From a virus: a stretch of DNA of 23,888 nt. Position 1 is the first letter of the stretch; each line of letters begins with the position of its first letter. Both the position numbers and the translations under genes were made by a program. The notes under the pieces were generated by a model. It saw only the letters and a program-made list of their open reading frames with translations, was not told the DNA's origin and made no database searches. Positions 1 through 5,072 of the stretch are shown here, piece after piece. The stretch covers positions 1 through 23,888 of IMG/VR virus record IMGVR_UViG_3300035187_000453, one strand, 5' to 3'.

Positions 1-186
1 GTACCACGCCTGATCGGGCTTGATCTTCTTAATGTCCGGCAGATGGGCAGGCCATGTGCACTTGATCGCGCCATCTGCATGAAACTGCAATTGACCGTCC
101 TTAAGCTGCGGCTTTTGCCGCACGATGAGCGGCGTTTCGCCCTCAGGCGCAAGAGAAATTAGGAACTCCAAGAATGCTTTTGTCAT
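1..186 (-). CDS. 5' end of an unidentified replication-module gene (cut by window edge)
   Basis: An open frame of 62 codons starts at ATG 186 and runs off the left edge of the window, so only the N-terminus is visible (begins MTKAFLEFLISLAPEGETP). A GAGG ribosome site lies 6 bases before the ATG and overlaps the stop of the HNH gene just upstream. The visible residues include VRQKPQLKDGQLQFHADGAI and CTWPAHLP, which hold no catalytic motif. Its place directly after the DNA polymerase suggests another replication enzyme, and the N-terminus loosely recalls phage primase/helicase proteins of the virulence-associated E type. That is inference from context and memory, not from a motif I can point to. 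Confidence 0.6.
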   Translation of the reverse strand, partial: MTKAFLEFLISLAPEGETPLIVRQKPQLKDGQLQFHADGAIKCTWPAHLPDIKKIKPDQAWY

Positions 187-194
187 GTCAACCC

Positions 195-593
195 TCATTT
201 AATTGCTATTAAACCCATACGATGCAATTTTCTATCCTCAAAATTTTCTTTAGTTGTGCCGTATTTGAGATTGCCTAAACGATTATTTGTTTTATCACCG
301 TCAAGATGCCGAATCTCGCATTTACCCTCAACAGTTGGTCTATACCCTTCAAAAGCTAGCAGCACTAACTCATGGATATATTTAGTTTTTGTCACACCCG
401 TTTTTGATAATTTGACACTCAAATAAGACCCAGAAATAAATTGTTTTATGTCACGACCTTGGTACATTGTTCTTTTATGACGTCCATAAGGCACTGAACG
501 TGTAAGCGACCGAACATCGCCATAATTGCTAACCTCATAAAAACCTTCATATCCTGGGATGGATGTCCAAACTAAAATTTCAGCCTTTTCCAT
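195..593 (-). CDS. NUMOD4-HNH homing-type endonuclease (downstream of DNA polymerase)
   Basis: This 132-residue protein has a NUMOD4 DNA-binding motif at about residues 9-30 (W-x-x-I-PGYEGFYEVSNYGDVRSL) and an HNH_3-type nuclease core at about 73-120 (YIHELVLLAF, then EIRHLDGDKTNNRLGNLKYG and TTKENFEDR). The family makes site-specific DNA breaks that spread its own gene. It starts 14 bases inside the 3' end of the polymerase gene in another frame, so translation may be coupled. Its base use differs sharply from its neighbour: I counted 19 G/C of 60 at 241-300 and 18 of 60 at 421-480, against 41 of 60 at 781-840 in the polymerase. This points to recent transfer. It is free-standing; I see no intron around it. 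Confidence 0.92.
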   Translation of the reverse strand: MEKAEILVWTSIPGYEGFYEVSNYGDVRSLTRSVPYGRHKRTMYQGRDIKQFISGSYLSVKLSKTGVTKTKYIHELVLLAFEGYRPTVEGKCEIRHLDGDKTNNRLGNLKYGTTKENFEDRKLHRMGLIAIK

Positions 594-2553
594 ATCTATC
601 CATAACGTTAATCTCGGCCTCTAAGGGCAGACCGCTTGCCCATGCGGGCGACGTACACATGACGCTATGGAGCATCGTTACCGCAGCGTCAGCGTCAGAC
701 GCTGGAACCTCTAAAACAATCTCATCATGCACATGCAACACGACGCCATCAAGCTGACGCAGCGACGAGCGCAAGATGTCGTTCGCCGCTGCCTGGCAGA
801 TGTTCTCTGCCGCTAACCCCTTCCACAGCCGCGCTCGGGGCCACTCCTTAGCGTCCGCAGCAGGCTTCCATGACGCCTTGGCATAGGACACGCCATCATC
901 CTCTAGCCTAGCGTAGGGGTAGCATAAGATGCGACCCGACGGCAGCGCGTACCAGAGATGCTGACCGTCAAAATAGTACGTCACACGGCCAGCCTTAAAC
1001 TCAGACTTTGGATGCTTCATCGCACGCAAGTAGGCCGACTCAAGCGCCTGCCAGTAGTGCACCGCCCACGGGTTAGCGCGACGCCACGCATCGACCATGC
1101 GCCTGCTGTCAGCCTCTGGAAGGTTAACGCCATAGATGCGCCCCATCGAGGCGAACGCACCCACGCCGCCACCGTAACCACAGGCAAGCTCTTGGACCTT
1201 CCCGATCTGGCGCTGCTCCTTGTCGATCTGTTCAATGGGCACGTTAAAGGTTCGACTCGCGTTGTGTTTGTAAATGTCAGCGCCCGTGCGAAACAAATCT
1301 AACTTAGCCTCAGACGTCACATGCGCTGACAGCCACGGGTTCATACGCGCTTCAATAGCCGCCCAATCTGCTACGATAAGCACATGCTCAGGCGCAGGCA
1401 TCAGCGCAGGCCGTAGCATTCCTTTAAGTACGTCAGTGACGCGTCGCCCGTAGGTCGGCACGATCTTGTGACCGCGCACCATCGCGTGCCGCACAGCCTC
1501 GGGGTCATCCGCACACTTGCGCGTGAAATTGTGAACTTGTGCGCCGTAAGACGACGCACGACCCGTGGCCGAGCCGCCAGCGAATACGAACGCACCCCTG
1601 ACGCGATGGTCCTCATCATCTGCAAGCGCAGCCAGGCGAGCGAACTTCGCCACACTGCTAGCCCACAGGTCGTCCGCGCACTGGATCACGTCAGCAACGT
1701 CCGGTGGCACCTGTTCAGGATCGTCCATCGCAAGCAAATTAGCGCGAACGGTCTTATCAATCGAATACTTCTTCTCACCGTCCTTGTAAGACTCCATGAG
1801 CTTGAGCGCCTCAGGACCAACGCGGTCCATGACCCACTGACGCATCTTGGGCGAGCGCACGCTCATAATCTCACCTTGCGTTACTTCAGCGACCAGTTGC
1901 TCGATCTCGACCAACTCGTCTGACGCGTAGTCGATCGCGGCCTTGCACAGCGCTACGTCCACCAGCACACCACGGTCGTTGATGCGCTCGTTCACATGGT
2001 AGTCGGCTAGTTCTTCGGCTGATAGGTCGCGCATGGCCTTGGAGATGGCTCGCATGGCGCGAACGTCTTGTTCACAGTAGGCCACCATCTCGGCAAAAAG
2101 TGCCGCATCTTGGCAAAACTTGCCGTCTGCCTGCGGCATACATAGCCGCCTTATCAGTTGCGCCCCACGGTAGTCCTTACGCATGTCTGCGCTAGCAAAC
2201 CGCCCCACGTCCTCAAGCGACCCTGGCGCACAGTTAGCACGCGCCTGTGTTGCAGTGCAATAAAACTGCTCAAGTCGGGGTTCAGGAACGTCAAATTCCG
2301 GACAAACCACATACCACAGAATTAAACGATCAAACGCCGCGTTATGAACATAGATGCGGCCGCCATTTGCGAAGTGATCCGCCACACGCTGGGGGAAAGG
2401 TTGATCAGGTATCCAAGTTTTAACTTCCTCGTCGTCAAACGCATATGACAAACACAGTAACGATGTCGATGGGTCTTGAGCGTAGTTGTAAGAGCCCCTT
2501 GAAATAAGATCAACGCGACTTCTTGTTTCTGTGTCAAGCCACAATACACTCAT
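580..2553 (-). CDS. Family A DNA polymerase with 3'-5' exonuclease domain
   Basis: This is the phage replicative polymerase, 657 residues from the chosen start. The N-terminal proofreading exonuclease shows LWLDTET (D7, E9), HNAAFDR (70-76) and YCEQDVRAM (159-167). The polymerase domain shows TGRASS (330-335), motif A VADWAAIEAR (394-403, catalytic D396), motif B R448...K452...Y460 (RQIGKVQELACGYGGG) and motif C HVHDEIVLEV (607-616, D610). All key residues are present. The ATG at 2553 overlaps the stop of the upstream HNH gene as ATGA; another in-frame ATG at 2565 would add MVVR. I prefer 2553 because the exonuclease motif then sits at the usual distance and the ATGA overlap matches the coupling style of this genome. 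The C-terminus (MDRYGKG) looks complete despite the overlapping HNH gene. Confidence 0.97.
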   Translation of the reverse strand: MSVLWLDTETRSRVDLISRGSYNYAQDPSTSLLCLSYAFDDEEVKTWIPDQPFPQRVADHFANGGRIYVHNAAFDRLILWYVVCPEFDVPEPRLEQFYCTATQARANCAPGSLEDVGRFASADMRKDYRGAQLIRRLCMPQADGKFCQDAALFAEMVAYCEQDVRAMRAISKAMRDLSAEELADYHVNERINDRGVLVDVALCKAAIDYASDELVEIEQLVAEVTQGEIMSVRSPKMRQWVMDRVGPEALKLMESYKDGEKKYSIDKTVRANLLAMDDPEQVPPDVADVIQCADDLWASSVAKFARLAALADDEDHRVRGAFVFAGGSATGRASSYGAQVHNFTRKCADDPEAVRHAMVRGHKIVPTYGRRVTDVLKGMLRPALMPAPEHVLIVADWAAIEARMNPWLSAHVTSEAKLDLFRTGADIYKHNASRTFNVPIEQIDKEQRQIGKVQELACGYGGGVGAFASMGRIYGVNLPEADSRRMVDAWRRANPWAVHYWQALESAYLRAMKHPKSEFKAGRVTYYFDGQHLWYALPSGRILCYPYARLEDDGVSYAKASWKPAADAKEWPRARLWKGLAAENICQAAANDILRSSLRQLDGVVLHVHDEIVLEVPASDADAAVTMLHSVMCTSPAWASGLPLEAEINVMDRYGKG

Positions 2554-3071
2554 GCGAACCACCATACGTATCCATACGCGGGCTTTCCGCGTTTCATCGC
2601 TCCGCTGATACCACCAGTTTGCTTGCCGCGTAGGGCAATTTCAGCCGCGATTTGACTCCCAAAACATACCGTCGTCTTGGTGCGTAAGTTGATGCCCATG
2701 ACGCGCTTTTCCGGTTTGACTCGCCGCCCAGCGGCTAGCGCGTGCTGCACGTTTTCCTTGCGCGATACCCACTCTAAATTGTCTACGCGGTTATCACGCC
2801 TCAAAAAATTTTTGTGGTTGACTTCGCGGTGGCCTTGCGGGTTAGGGATGAACGCCTGCGCTACAAGCTGATGTATGGTTTTAACGACGCGGGTTTGTTT
2901 ACCGCCCGAATACAAATGAACGCAGGCATATCCGTGTTTCATGATGTTCGGTTTAAGCGGTCGATTGGTACGTTTTGACAATACGCGTCCAATGTCGCTG
3001 ACTTCATACAACCCCTCATAGCCTGACACATCTTTCCAGCTTTCAGTCATATTTAAAATCAGCACGCTCAT
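2550..3071 (-). CDS. NUMOD4-HNH homing-type endonuclease (upstream of DNA polymerase)
   Basis: A 173-residue protein. NUMOD4 lies at about residues 12-30 (SWKDVSGYEGLYEVSDIGRV), an HNH_3 core at about 62-110 (IHQLVAQAFIPNP, EVNHKNFLRRDNRVDNLEWV, SRKENVQHA), and a C-terminal region resembling NUMOD1 or an AP2-like helix (SQIAAEIALRGKQTGGISG, ending YGYVWWFA). It starts directly after the TAG stop of the 55-aa gene and its TGA stop overlaps the polymerase ATG. Met8 at 3050 (MTESWKDV) is the start expected for the family, so the first seven residues, MSVLILN, are an extension that resembles the polymerase N-terminus MSVLWLD. Base composition matches the neighbours (34 G/C of 60 at 2821-2880), unlike the other HNH gene, which suggests longer residence. 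Confidence 0.93.
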   Translation of the reverse strand: MSVLILNMTESWKDVSGYEGLYEVSDIGRVLSKRTNRPLKPNIMKHGYACVHLYSGGKQTRVVKTIHQLVAQAFIPNPQGHREVNHKNFLRRDNRVDNLEWVSRKENVQHALAAGRRVKPEKRVMGINLRTKTTVCFGSQIAAEIALRGKQTGGISGAMKRGKPAYGYVWWFA

Positions 3072-3239
3072 CTACGGACCCAACGTCGGTTCAGCATTTT
3101 GTGCAGCCAACACAACCAACTCCGAAGCGGTGCGCCTGATCTGCATCGCGCACTCAAGCGCACCAACCGCATCACACATGTCGCATAGATGCTTATATTC
3201 GCGCAATAAATGCGTAAGCGTTTCATAAGGGTGTTCCAT
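3072..3239 (-). CDS. Small phage protein, 55 aa, unknown function
   Basis: I do not recognise this protein (begins MEHPYETLTHLLREYKHLCD, ends AEPTLGP). It looks mainly helical, with three cysteines (CDMCD, ALECAM), and has no signal peptide or membrane segment. The start at 3239 is supported by GGAG 9 bases upstream. A longer frame reaching 3290 would translate through the terminator hairpin and has no ribosome site, so it is rejected. The stop TAG abuts the ATG of the HNH gene, so the two are probably co-translated. It lies between the putative ssDNA-binding protein and the polymerase, suggesting a replication accessory, but nothing in the sequence proves this. Confidence 0.7.
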   Translation of the reverse strand: MEHPYETLTHLLREYKHLCDMCDAVGALECAMQIRRTASELVVLAAQNAEPTLGP

Positions 3240-3253
3240 CGTTTTCTCCAAAG

Positions 3254-3284
3254 AAAAAAAAGCCACGGCTGTTACACCGTGGCT
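3254..3284 (-). terminator. Intrinsic terminator inside the replication operon
   Basis: On the minus strand an 8-bp perfect stem, AGCCACGG/CCGTGGCT, with an 8-base loop is followed by a run of seven T. It lies after the stop of the 216-aa gene and just before the GGAG of the 55-aa gene. No T run follows on the plus strand. It would lower transcription of the downstream polymerase and endonuclease genes relative to the nuclease and putative ssDNA-binding genes. Confidence 0.85.
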
Positions 3285-3295
3285 CTCCAAGCTAG

Positions 3296-3946
3296 TTAGG
3301 CTACGCGACGACGACGACGCGGCGCATCTTCAGCGGCGGGGTTGGCCTCCTCCGGTGCGTCCACTTCCTCGGTCTTACCGTCCATGCTTGCCCACTCCAC
3401 AACTTCAAACACTGGCGTGAATATCTTGCCATAGCTTTTGTGTGTGTAGTGGTCCTTCTTGAGCCTCACGACAGGCACAGGCTTTGATTGATCCTTCTCA
3501 ACCTGCGCGGCGATCGCTAGCGCGAGCGTCTGTACGCTGCGCTTACCACCGACTGACGTGGTGGTATAGCGGGCTTCCATACCTTGATCGTCGCCTGTCA
3601 GACACTTAAGCGACATGCCGACTTGGGTTTCCCAACCCTTCTTTGCGCCTGGCGGGGCGACATCGATGTTGGGCAAAGGCTCAGATACCGACACCATCTT
3701 CTCAGCCAACACCTCGCCATCACCCCACGCAATGTAGCCGTGGACAAACGAGAAGGGATTGACTGCCCAAGTCGAACCATCTTCGATCTCGGTCTGATCA
3801 GCACCAAAGACCCAGTGGCCGGTCTTGTCCATCTTAAGAATGACGATGCCAGACGGGCCAACGTCCTTTTCAAGTGTACGCAGTGCTGTGGAAAGGCTTG
3901 CTACTGATGGGAGATTTGCTTGACTGAAAGCTACTAGATTAGACAT
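3296..3946 (-). CDS. Conserved phage replication-module protein, possible ssDNA-binding protein
   Basis: A 216-residue soluble protein with no motif I can name. The central part is rich in alternating hydrophobic and polar stretches (GHWVFGADQTEIEDG, NPFSFVHGYIAWGDGE, VGMSLKCLTGDDQGMEARYT) typical of a beta-rich fold. A basic/aromatic stretch follows (VVRLKKDHYTHKSYGKIFTP), then an acidic, Pro/Ala-rich tail that ends in five arginines. ATG 3946 is preferred over the GTG at 3949 because AAGGA then sits at 7 bases. In phages with this type of replication module a gene in this position often encodes the ssDNA-binding protein, and none other is seen here. That role is inference. A terminator follows directly. 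Confidence 0.85.
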   Translation of the reverse strand: MSNLVAFSQANLPSVASLSTALRTLEKDVGPSGIVILKMDKTGHWVFGADQTEIEDGSTWAVNPFSFVHGYIAWGDGEVLAEKMVSVSEPLPNIDVAPPGAKKGWETQVGMSLKCLTGDDQGMEARYTTTSVGGKRSVQTLALAIAAQVEKDQSKPVPVVRLKKDHYTHKSYGKIFTPVFEVVEWASMDGKTEEVDAPEEANPAAEDAPRRRRRVA

Positions 3947-3956
3947 CACGATTTCC

Positions 3957-5072
3957 TTACTGAAGTTTAGAAAGGGCAGCAGTTAAGTGCAACCCAACGT
4001 TAAGCACGGCAGGCCGGGGATCGCTCTCCGGCGCTAACGTGCTGCCGCTCGACACTGCGATGACAAGATCGTCAGGCAGTGCTAGCTTGCTCTTTTTCAG
4101 CACCTTCTCAGCTTGAGTAGGGCTAATTAATTCGGTCTTACGGCGCTCGCTGTCAGGGATGCCAAGCTGCGCCAGTGCAGCGTCTGCTTTGCTCTCGTCC
4201 GCCCACTGACGCGTTGCGCGTTTCGATACAAGTTTATACCCCGGCACGGGCATGTTTTTCTCAAGCCGGTTATACGCCAACTTGCGAGCCTCTGCGATGA
4301 AGGACTCTAGCTTATCAGCCATCTCAAGCGCCGACGCTAATTGATCAGGCGCAAGCGCCTCTAGCTTCAGATGCACAACGCGATCGATCTCGCCGGTCAT
4401 CTTAGGGCAGACGGGCTTGCCTGTGCACCAGCGGCACCAATCACCAATCTCAAGCGGCGCGTTGGGTTTGCTGGCTAAGGTCACAGCCGTCTGTAGTTCG
4501 GCGACAAACTGCTGCACACGCTCAAAGGTCGTCACCCAGCGCCGCACGGCAGGCGGCTGTACGATGATGATCTCGATCTCATCTGCGAAATAAAACACCC
4601 ACGACAGCTTATTAGTTGCCATCGCAGCGGCAGCGTAAAAAAGACCTTGATAGTTTTCTTCGGCGTCAACGATCACGCCATCGCCAAACTTCCAATCAAG
4701 GACCACGGCTGTGCGGCCAATGCGCCCGATCAGATCGACGTTACCGAAGACGCCCTCAAGACCTTTGACGCCTTCAAACTCAACCTGCACCTCTTGCGCG
4801 AACTCCATCGACTGACCAGGATCAATCGCTTCAAGTGCCTGCACGCAAAAGGCGAGCTTCTCGATCTGCTCGTCCGTTAGGTTGTGCTTGGCTGCAACCT
4901 CAGGCAACGTCGACGCGCCGAGTAAGTCTTCCATGCACGCGTGCAAGAGCGTACCCTCTGCTGCGTACTTGCTCTCGACCTGCGGTGGCATTTGCTGCAC
5001 AAGCGCCACCGACCCAGGGCAGTTGATCACACGTTTGGCGGTCGAGCCGCCAACGATCTTAGAGTGATTCAT
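3957..5072 (-). CDS. DUF2800-type PD-(D/E)XK nuclease (Cas4/RecB-like, Fe-S)
   Basis: A 371-residue nuclease of the RecB/Cas4 superfamily. Visible motifs are AEGTLLH (38-44, H44), GNVDLIGRIG (110-119, D113), VVLDWKFGDG (123-132, D126 and K128, the D-x-K catalytic pair) and NYQGLFYAAA (140-149, the Q-x3-Y motif). Cysteines C18, C213, C216 and C222 (INCPGS and WCRWCTGKPVCPK) match the iron-sulphur cluster of this class. It is expected to process DNA ends during replication or recombination. ATG 5072 has GGAG 7 bases upstream and gives the usual N-terminus; the longer frame to 5153 runs back through the preceding gene. It overlaps the 52-aa gene by 14 bases. Confidence 0.9.
   Translation of the reverse strand: MNHSKIVGGSTAKRVINCPGSVALVQQMPPQVESKYAAEGTLLHACMEDLLGASTLPEVAAKHNLTDEQIEKLAFCVQALEAIDPGQSMEFAQEVQVEFEGVKGLEGVFGNVDLIGRIGRTAVVLDWKFGDGVIVDAEENYQGLFYAAAAMATNKLSWVFYFADEIEIIIVQPPAVRRWVTTFERVQQFVAELQTAVTLASKPNAPLEIGDWCRWCTGKPVCPKMTGEIDRVVHLKLEALAPDQLASALEMADKLESFIAEARKLAYNRLEKNMPVPGYKLVSKRATRQWADESKADAALAQLGIPDSERRKTELISPTQAEKVLKKSKLALPDDLVIAVSSGSTLAPESDPRPAVLNVGLHLTAALSKLQ

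Follow-up and report, generated by a model that had tools for sequence, protein, structure and literature searches.

The window analysed here, a stretch of 23,888 nucleotides from a virus (IMG/VR record IMGVR_UViG_3300035187_000453), carries on its minus strand a family A DNA polymerase gene that is bracketed by HNH genes at 2550-3071 and 195-593. The features that bear on the history of this locus are given below in the 5' to 3' order of the minus strand. L numbers denote related loci, which were fetched by polymerase (80 loci) and by p55 (24 loci).

3296 to 3949, minus strand: p217, a 217-amino-acid gene upstream of p55; a homologous flank that served for comparison
3072 to 3239, minus strand: p55, a 55-amino-acid gene whose TAG (3072-3074) abuts the next ATG; homologues of 53-100% in relatives
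3060 to 3071, minus strand: leader ATGAGCGTGCTG, a stranded start (codons 1-4), most likely that of the polymerase, and the present HNH start; 12 of 12 bases as in the L245 polymerase start
3051 to 3059, minus strand: 9-nt filler ATTTTAAAT, separating the stranded start from the ATG typical of the HNH family; it forms the left edge of the cassette
2550 to 3050, minus strand: core of the predicted HNH homing endonuclease (MTESWKDV...WWFA*), NUMOD4 plus HNH_3, a relative of I-HmuI (Pfam, PDB, PHROG)
2550 to 2553, minus strand: ATGA, the polymerase start codon overlapping the HNH stop; overlap kept in L083-L085, L166 and L169/L170
580 to 2553, minus strand: family A DNA polymerase, 657 amino acids (Pfam DNA_pol_A 8.7e-23; PHROG 17)
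2275 to 2553, minus strand: foreign polymerase nt 1-279 (codons 1-93, DTETRS type), travelling with the HNH gene; from the identity break against L245
2263 to 2275, minus strand: right breakpoint, polymerase nt 279 to 291, in the conserved LEQFYC segment; from the mismatch map
195 to 593, minus strand: second NUMOD4-HNH gene (Pfam), with a 14-nt overlap with the polymerase 3' end
187 to 194, minus strand: GGGTTGAC, the stranded original polymerase end behind the second HNH gene, by comparison with insert-free L018

At the left junction the HNH frame starts with ATGAGCGTGCTGATTTTAAATATGACTGAAAGC, its ATG at 3071, immediately behind the p55 stop codon (TAG, 3074-3072); the first-pass annotation had placed an old polymerase start directly after this TAG, and that is where the ATG stands. 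The frame reads MSVLILNMTESWKDV...WWFA* and ends in TGGTTCGCATGA, the ATGA of which is also the start of the polymerase (ATGAGTGTATTGTGGCTTGAC), which reads MSVLWLDTETRS from 2553. The likeness claimed for the two starts was likewise confirmed, the first 12 bases of the HNH frame, ATGAGCGTGCTG, agreeing with those of the polymerase, ATGAGTGTATTG, at nine positions. As the junction is identical in L001, a separate contig, a one-off assembly error is excluded. Codon 8 of the HNH frame, an ATG 21 nt downstream of the first, offers an alternative start. A hairpin resembling a terminator separates p217 from p55, and a promoter search before the HNH gene gave nothing above shuffled sequences. It is very likely that the HNH protein is translated from the stranded ATG, by reinitiation at the TAG-ATG site of p55.

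The HNH protein matches the Pfam families NUMOD4 (2.6e-13, 50.4 bits against a cut-off of 23.4, residues 10-54) and HNH_3 (1e-7, 31.9 bits against a cut-off of 24.8, residues 66-108), as well as I-HmuI (PDB 1u3e, 8.9e-17) and the PHROG HNH family (8.6e-42). Since NUMOD4 starts at residue 10 and the I-HmuI match at residue 11, the seven residues of the leader lie outside the known domains. Among prokaryote genomes the relatives of this protein are only distant (34-54%). By these matches the gene is a putative free-standing homing endonuclease gene (HEG), of a class already known.

The HNH gene shows a present/absent polymorphism at the homologous site, being present in the window, L001 and L082 and absent from L004-L006, L245 and others. 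As had been predicted for relatives that lack the insert, in more than 20 loci the p55 stop is directly followed by an MS[VTI]L polymerase start, in the form ATGAGC[ACC/GTC/ATC]CT[G/A]TGGGT... or ATGAGTGTCCTGTGGGTT, with polymerase N-termini of MSTLWVD, MSVLWVD or MSILWVD. Insert-free L245 has TAGATGAGCGTGCTG directly followed by TGGGTTGAT, and the window is identical with it at 15 of 15 bases up to the junction (the TAG plus the 12-mer), TGG being next in L245; set against the L245 reading TAGATGAGCGTGCTGTGGGTTGATTTTGAAACG, the window matches through CTG and departs thereafter. Six distinct 12-mers occur at this site among the insert-free loci, and the chance that the nine bases after an ATG match one of six targets is, by our own arithmetic, ~2e-5, a figure that becomes ~1/16 if the leader started as the methyltransferase start ATGAAGGTGCT. 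Among INPHARED phages the nearest polymerase (MW202483, 56.5%) was uninformative on the junction. On this comparison, the leader would most likely represent the first four codons of the former polymerase, now a stranded start.

The insert extends beyond the HNH gene. The polymerases of the window and L245 are 58.4% identical over codons 5-93 (with 24 gap columns) and 98.9% over the following 270 nt; mismatches of the foreign part end at nt 279, and the next lies at nt 291. Against L002 the corresponding values are 58.8% before the break and 96.2% over the remainder of the gene. Because of this sharp break in identity at codon 94, the insert is read as the HNH gene together with the first 279 nt of another polymerase, and it is a mark of co-conversion that these 279 nt go with the HNH gene across loci. 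The earlier proposal that the endonuclease had invaded the polymerase just after its start codon is retained in part: an old start was most likely left before the HNH gene, exact in L245, but the event was not an insertion merely behind a start codon. The further proposal of a polymerase start recovered from the HNH end has to be given up, because the start arrived ready made in the cassette, within the foreign 279 nt, and the ATGA overlap is older, occurring in phages whose HNH genes have no leader. The main inference of that annotation is sound, but the event is a cassette transfer rather than a simple insertion, and it exemplifies a known process at good resolution.

Relatives of the HNH gene (51-85%) in L083, L084, L085, L166 and L169/L170 have the same GCATGA overlap with a DTETRS-type polymerase; in the loci that include the upstream side they begin MTETWK, MQEVWK or MENWK, without a leader, and are preceded by p217, not p55. 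Within a non-redundant set, DTETRS was found in nine of nine distinct loci with a window-type HNH gene and in two of 100 others (Fisher 1.3e-11, uncorrected for shared ancestry), the two exceptions being L168, without an HNH gene, and L213, with another HNH type. This association reflects linked inheritance rather than independent events. Over polymerase nt 1-279 the window is 99.6% identical with L082, 99.3% with L003 and 100% with L087, as against 91.9%, 83.2% and 90.3%, respectively, over nt 280-1400; the evidence from L003 and L087 concerns the right side, as their left flanks are missing. The HNH segment of L082 differs from that of the window at eight of 506 bases and its upstream flank by ~4%, and L001 is identical with the window throughout the cassette. 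On backgrounds 8-17% apart, the cassette remains 99-100% identical, and identity so far above that of either flank points to its recent spread through homing or recombination.

Taking together the observed junctions, the insert-free state, the mosaic tract and its occurrence on several backgrounds, we consider that the best explanation as a whole is probably the homing of an HNH cassette with capture of the recipient's start. A NUMOD4-HNH gene, in other phages already overlapping a DTETRS-type polymerase at its start, would have entered a phage with p55 directly before its polymerase, and the endonuclease would have cleaved the 5' end of the recipient polymerase gene. Only the right side offers homology between donor and recipient, in the LEQFYCTATQARANCAPGS segment, and homologous recombination within polymerase codons 94-97 presumably repaired the break there; co-conversion would have brought in nt 1-279 of the donor polymerase and would also have made the locus resistant to recutting. 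On the left, donor-type loci (p217-HNH) and the recipient type (p217-p55-polymerase) share nothing beside the HNH gene, and yet p55 is intact, a combination that points to one-sided homing with illegitimate repair. The left side, which lacked homology, would have been joined behind the fourth codon of the recipient polymerase, with ATGAGCGTGCTG left stranded. The TAG-ATG site, which formerly would have passed ribosomes from p55 to the polymerase, may now start the HNH protein, with the polymerase being translated via its ATGA overlap with the HNH stop. One-sided events, illegitimate repair and microhomology at the junction have been described in the homing of the T4 td intron, and free-standing endonucleases overlapping the upstream gene have been discussed as translationally coupled (PMC2988022). 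A donor with ATTTTAAAT before the HNH gene was sought, and among the matches examined only the window lineage (L001, L082/L267) has it. It is rare for the birth of a free-standing HEG locus to be documented by an insert-free recipient as well as a donor-type cassette; in this case the junctions are known to the base, one apparently homologous and the other illegitimate, the old start of the host gene appears to have become that of the invader, and the scheme predicts a cut site plus a resistant allele.

A different history for the leader is possible, though we regard it as unlikely, namely that it remains from a methyltransferase gene (MKVLVACEYSGR...) which lay between p55 and the polymerase and was replaced by the HNH cassette, giving the MKVLILN of L082; the MSVL of the window would have arisen later, by a change of 2 nt or a patch acquired from a polymerase start. 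At this site L243 and L002 have TAG directly followed by ATGAAGGTGCTA and the methyltransferase, a DNA methyltransferase gene (PHROG 757, 9.7e-74) that starts with ATGAAGGTGCTAGTAGC after the TAG; the HNH leader of L082, ATGAAGGTGCTG (MKVL), is the same as this methyltransferase start, and for 99 nt up to GTGCT L082 does not differ from L243. The 3' allele of the window p55 is common to L002 and L243, and the remaining polymerase is 96% identical with that of L002; in both these parts the nearest loci are the methyltransferase carriers L002 and L243. Yet the window 12-mer is exact to the L245 polymerase start and three bases off the methyltransferase start, and with two differences in the 12-base leader, compared with eight in the 506 bases of the HNH segment, recombination is a better account than mutation (P ~0.015). 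L082 is equally explained by a single crossover within GTGCT between a window-like and an L243-like phage. Weighing such a crossover against an HNH gene that replaced the methyltransferase first, we hold the crossover to be about twice as likely, the L245 match speaking for it and the p55 allele and L002 polymerase for the methyltransferase. An insert-free phage with the window p55 3' allele (CGCACCGCTTCGGAGTTGG) was not found; ATGAGCGTGCTGTGG after its TAG would represent the polymerase-origin state.

Common as MS, MT and MK starts are, and although the methyltransferase too begins MKVL here from its own family start (MRILV in L058), it is very improbable that MSVL is a chance match or that the start was shaped solely by selection for a compact stop-start junction. 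The first-pass annotation had named a chance match of four residues as the outcome that would count against its reading; the identity with L245 spans all 15 bases at a homologous site, divergence is abrupt immediately after, and HNH relatives have no such leader. A transposon-like insertion with target-site duplication, deriving both copies from one polymerase start, would account for the near-duplicate 12-mer on both sides of the insert, but it is so improbable that we regard it as ruled out, since the right copy lies in the 279-nt tract of different origin and the two copies therefore differ in their histories; no transposase was seen. Least probable of all is a group I intron or intein with the HNH gene inside the polymerase gene (ATGAGCGTGCTG spliced to TGGCTTGAC). 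I-HmuI is intron-encoded, and this nearest solved relative (PDB 1u3e, phage SPO1) likewise combines NUMOD4 with HNH and is tied to a phage DNA polymerase gene; the window gene, however, has no intron. The polymerase after the HNH gene is complete with its own start, in relatives the HNH gene lies between two complete genes, and the HNH gene and polymerase are in different frames, each with its own stop and start. These separate frames, together with an Rfam intron search of window positions 1-4200 that gave no match, tell against an intron or intein.

The 3' end of the polymerase mirrors the left junction. Insert-free L018 reads GGAAAGGGTTGACATGACAAAA and the window HNH-TGA-GGGTTGACATGACAAAA, the window 3' junction being GGAAAAGGCTGAAATT...HNH...TGAGGGTTGACATGACAAAA, and from this comparison the old polymerase end appears stranded behind the second HNH gene, as the start is before the first. 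Relatives of the second HNH gene always lie at a polymerase 3' end (17 other loci). What is shared between otherwise unlike phages is the 5' cassette only, and L001 has no second HNH gene.

The free-standing HEGs of T4-like phages (seg and mob; intronless homing, marker exclusion) are likewise intron-less HNH or GIY-YIG genes beside essential genes, and as in the present case they spread with co-conversion of flanking alleles and often overlap the start or stop of a neighbour, with mobE in Aeh1 and seg43 in phage 25 inserting in essential genes (PMC2988022). The window differs in that the host gene is unsplit, the cassette supplies the polymerase start, and the old recipient start would have become that of the predicted endonuclease. 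In HEG-islands, as described by Barth, Dunham and Seed 2023 (PMC10448857), HEGs bracket an essential gene at fixed positions and are interchangeable, and phages of unlike background carry homologous cargo. A polymerase between two HEGs fits this description; the present case differs in concerning a family A polymerase, aquatic phages and NUMOD4-HNH genes, and in that transfer, known from sequence, involves the 5' cassette only.

It is rather doubtful, if worth entertaining, that the polymerase borders are dedicated docking sites, into which HNH genes unrelated to one another (five or more types at the 5' end), as well as the methyltransferase, would swap seamlessly, each bringing polymerase end codons ready made; the scar behind codon 4 on the left would then be the cut site, and a covarying hairpin before four interchangeable HNH types a fixed regulatory and recombination anchor of the exchange.

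This ~95-nt RNA hairpin, with a T-run, stands directly before HNH genes in L083 (2896-2994), L166 (2403-2502), L170 (2395-2496), L027 (3376-3480), L326, L328, L331 and L334. Its minimum free energy is -48 to -53 kcal/mol (z -4.7 to -6.1; four tested), with two-sided changes at 6 of 30 pairs, and it precedes at least four HNH types, three NUMOD4-HNH types plus a CxxC-type HNH, lying before the polymerase wherever that side is present. No Rfam family fits the hairpin, which was absent elsewhere among the 100 loci searched and from the window. By eye, upstream TTGGCGG and AAGGT could pair with loop TCCGCCAA and ACCTT to form pseudoknots.

Other arrangements occur at the polymerase 5' end. A methyltransferase gene lies between p55 (or p217) and the polymerase in L002 (111-655), L243 and L058, and in L243 the polymerase start appears to lie within the methyltransferase end (ATGGGGCTGATCCTG). 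In L213 (2450-3001) another DTETRS polymerase is immediately preceded by an HNH gene of a different, CxxC type. In L060 (3526-4001) yet another HNH gene has the ribosome-binding stretch of the polymerase, GGAGACACT(T)ATG, on either side, which suggests a similar start capture.
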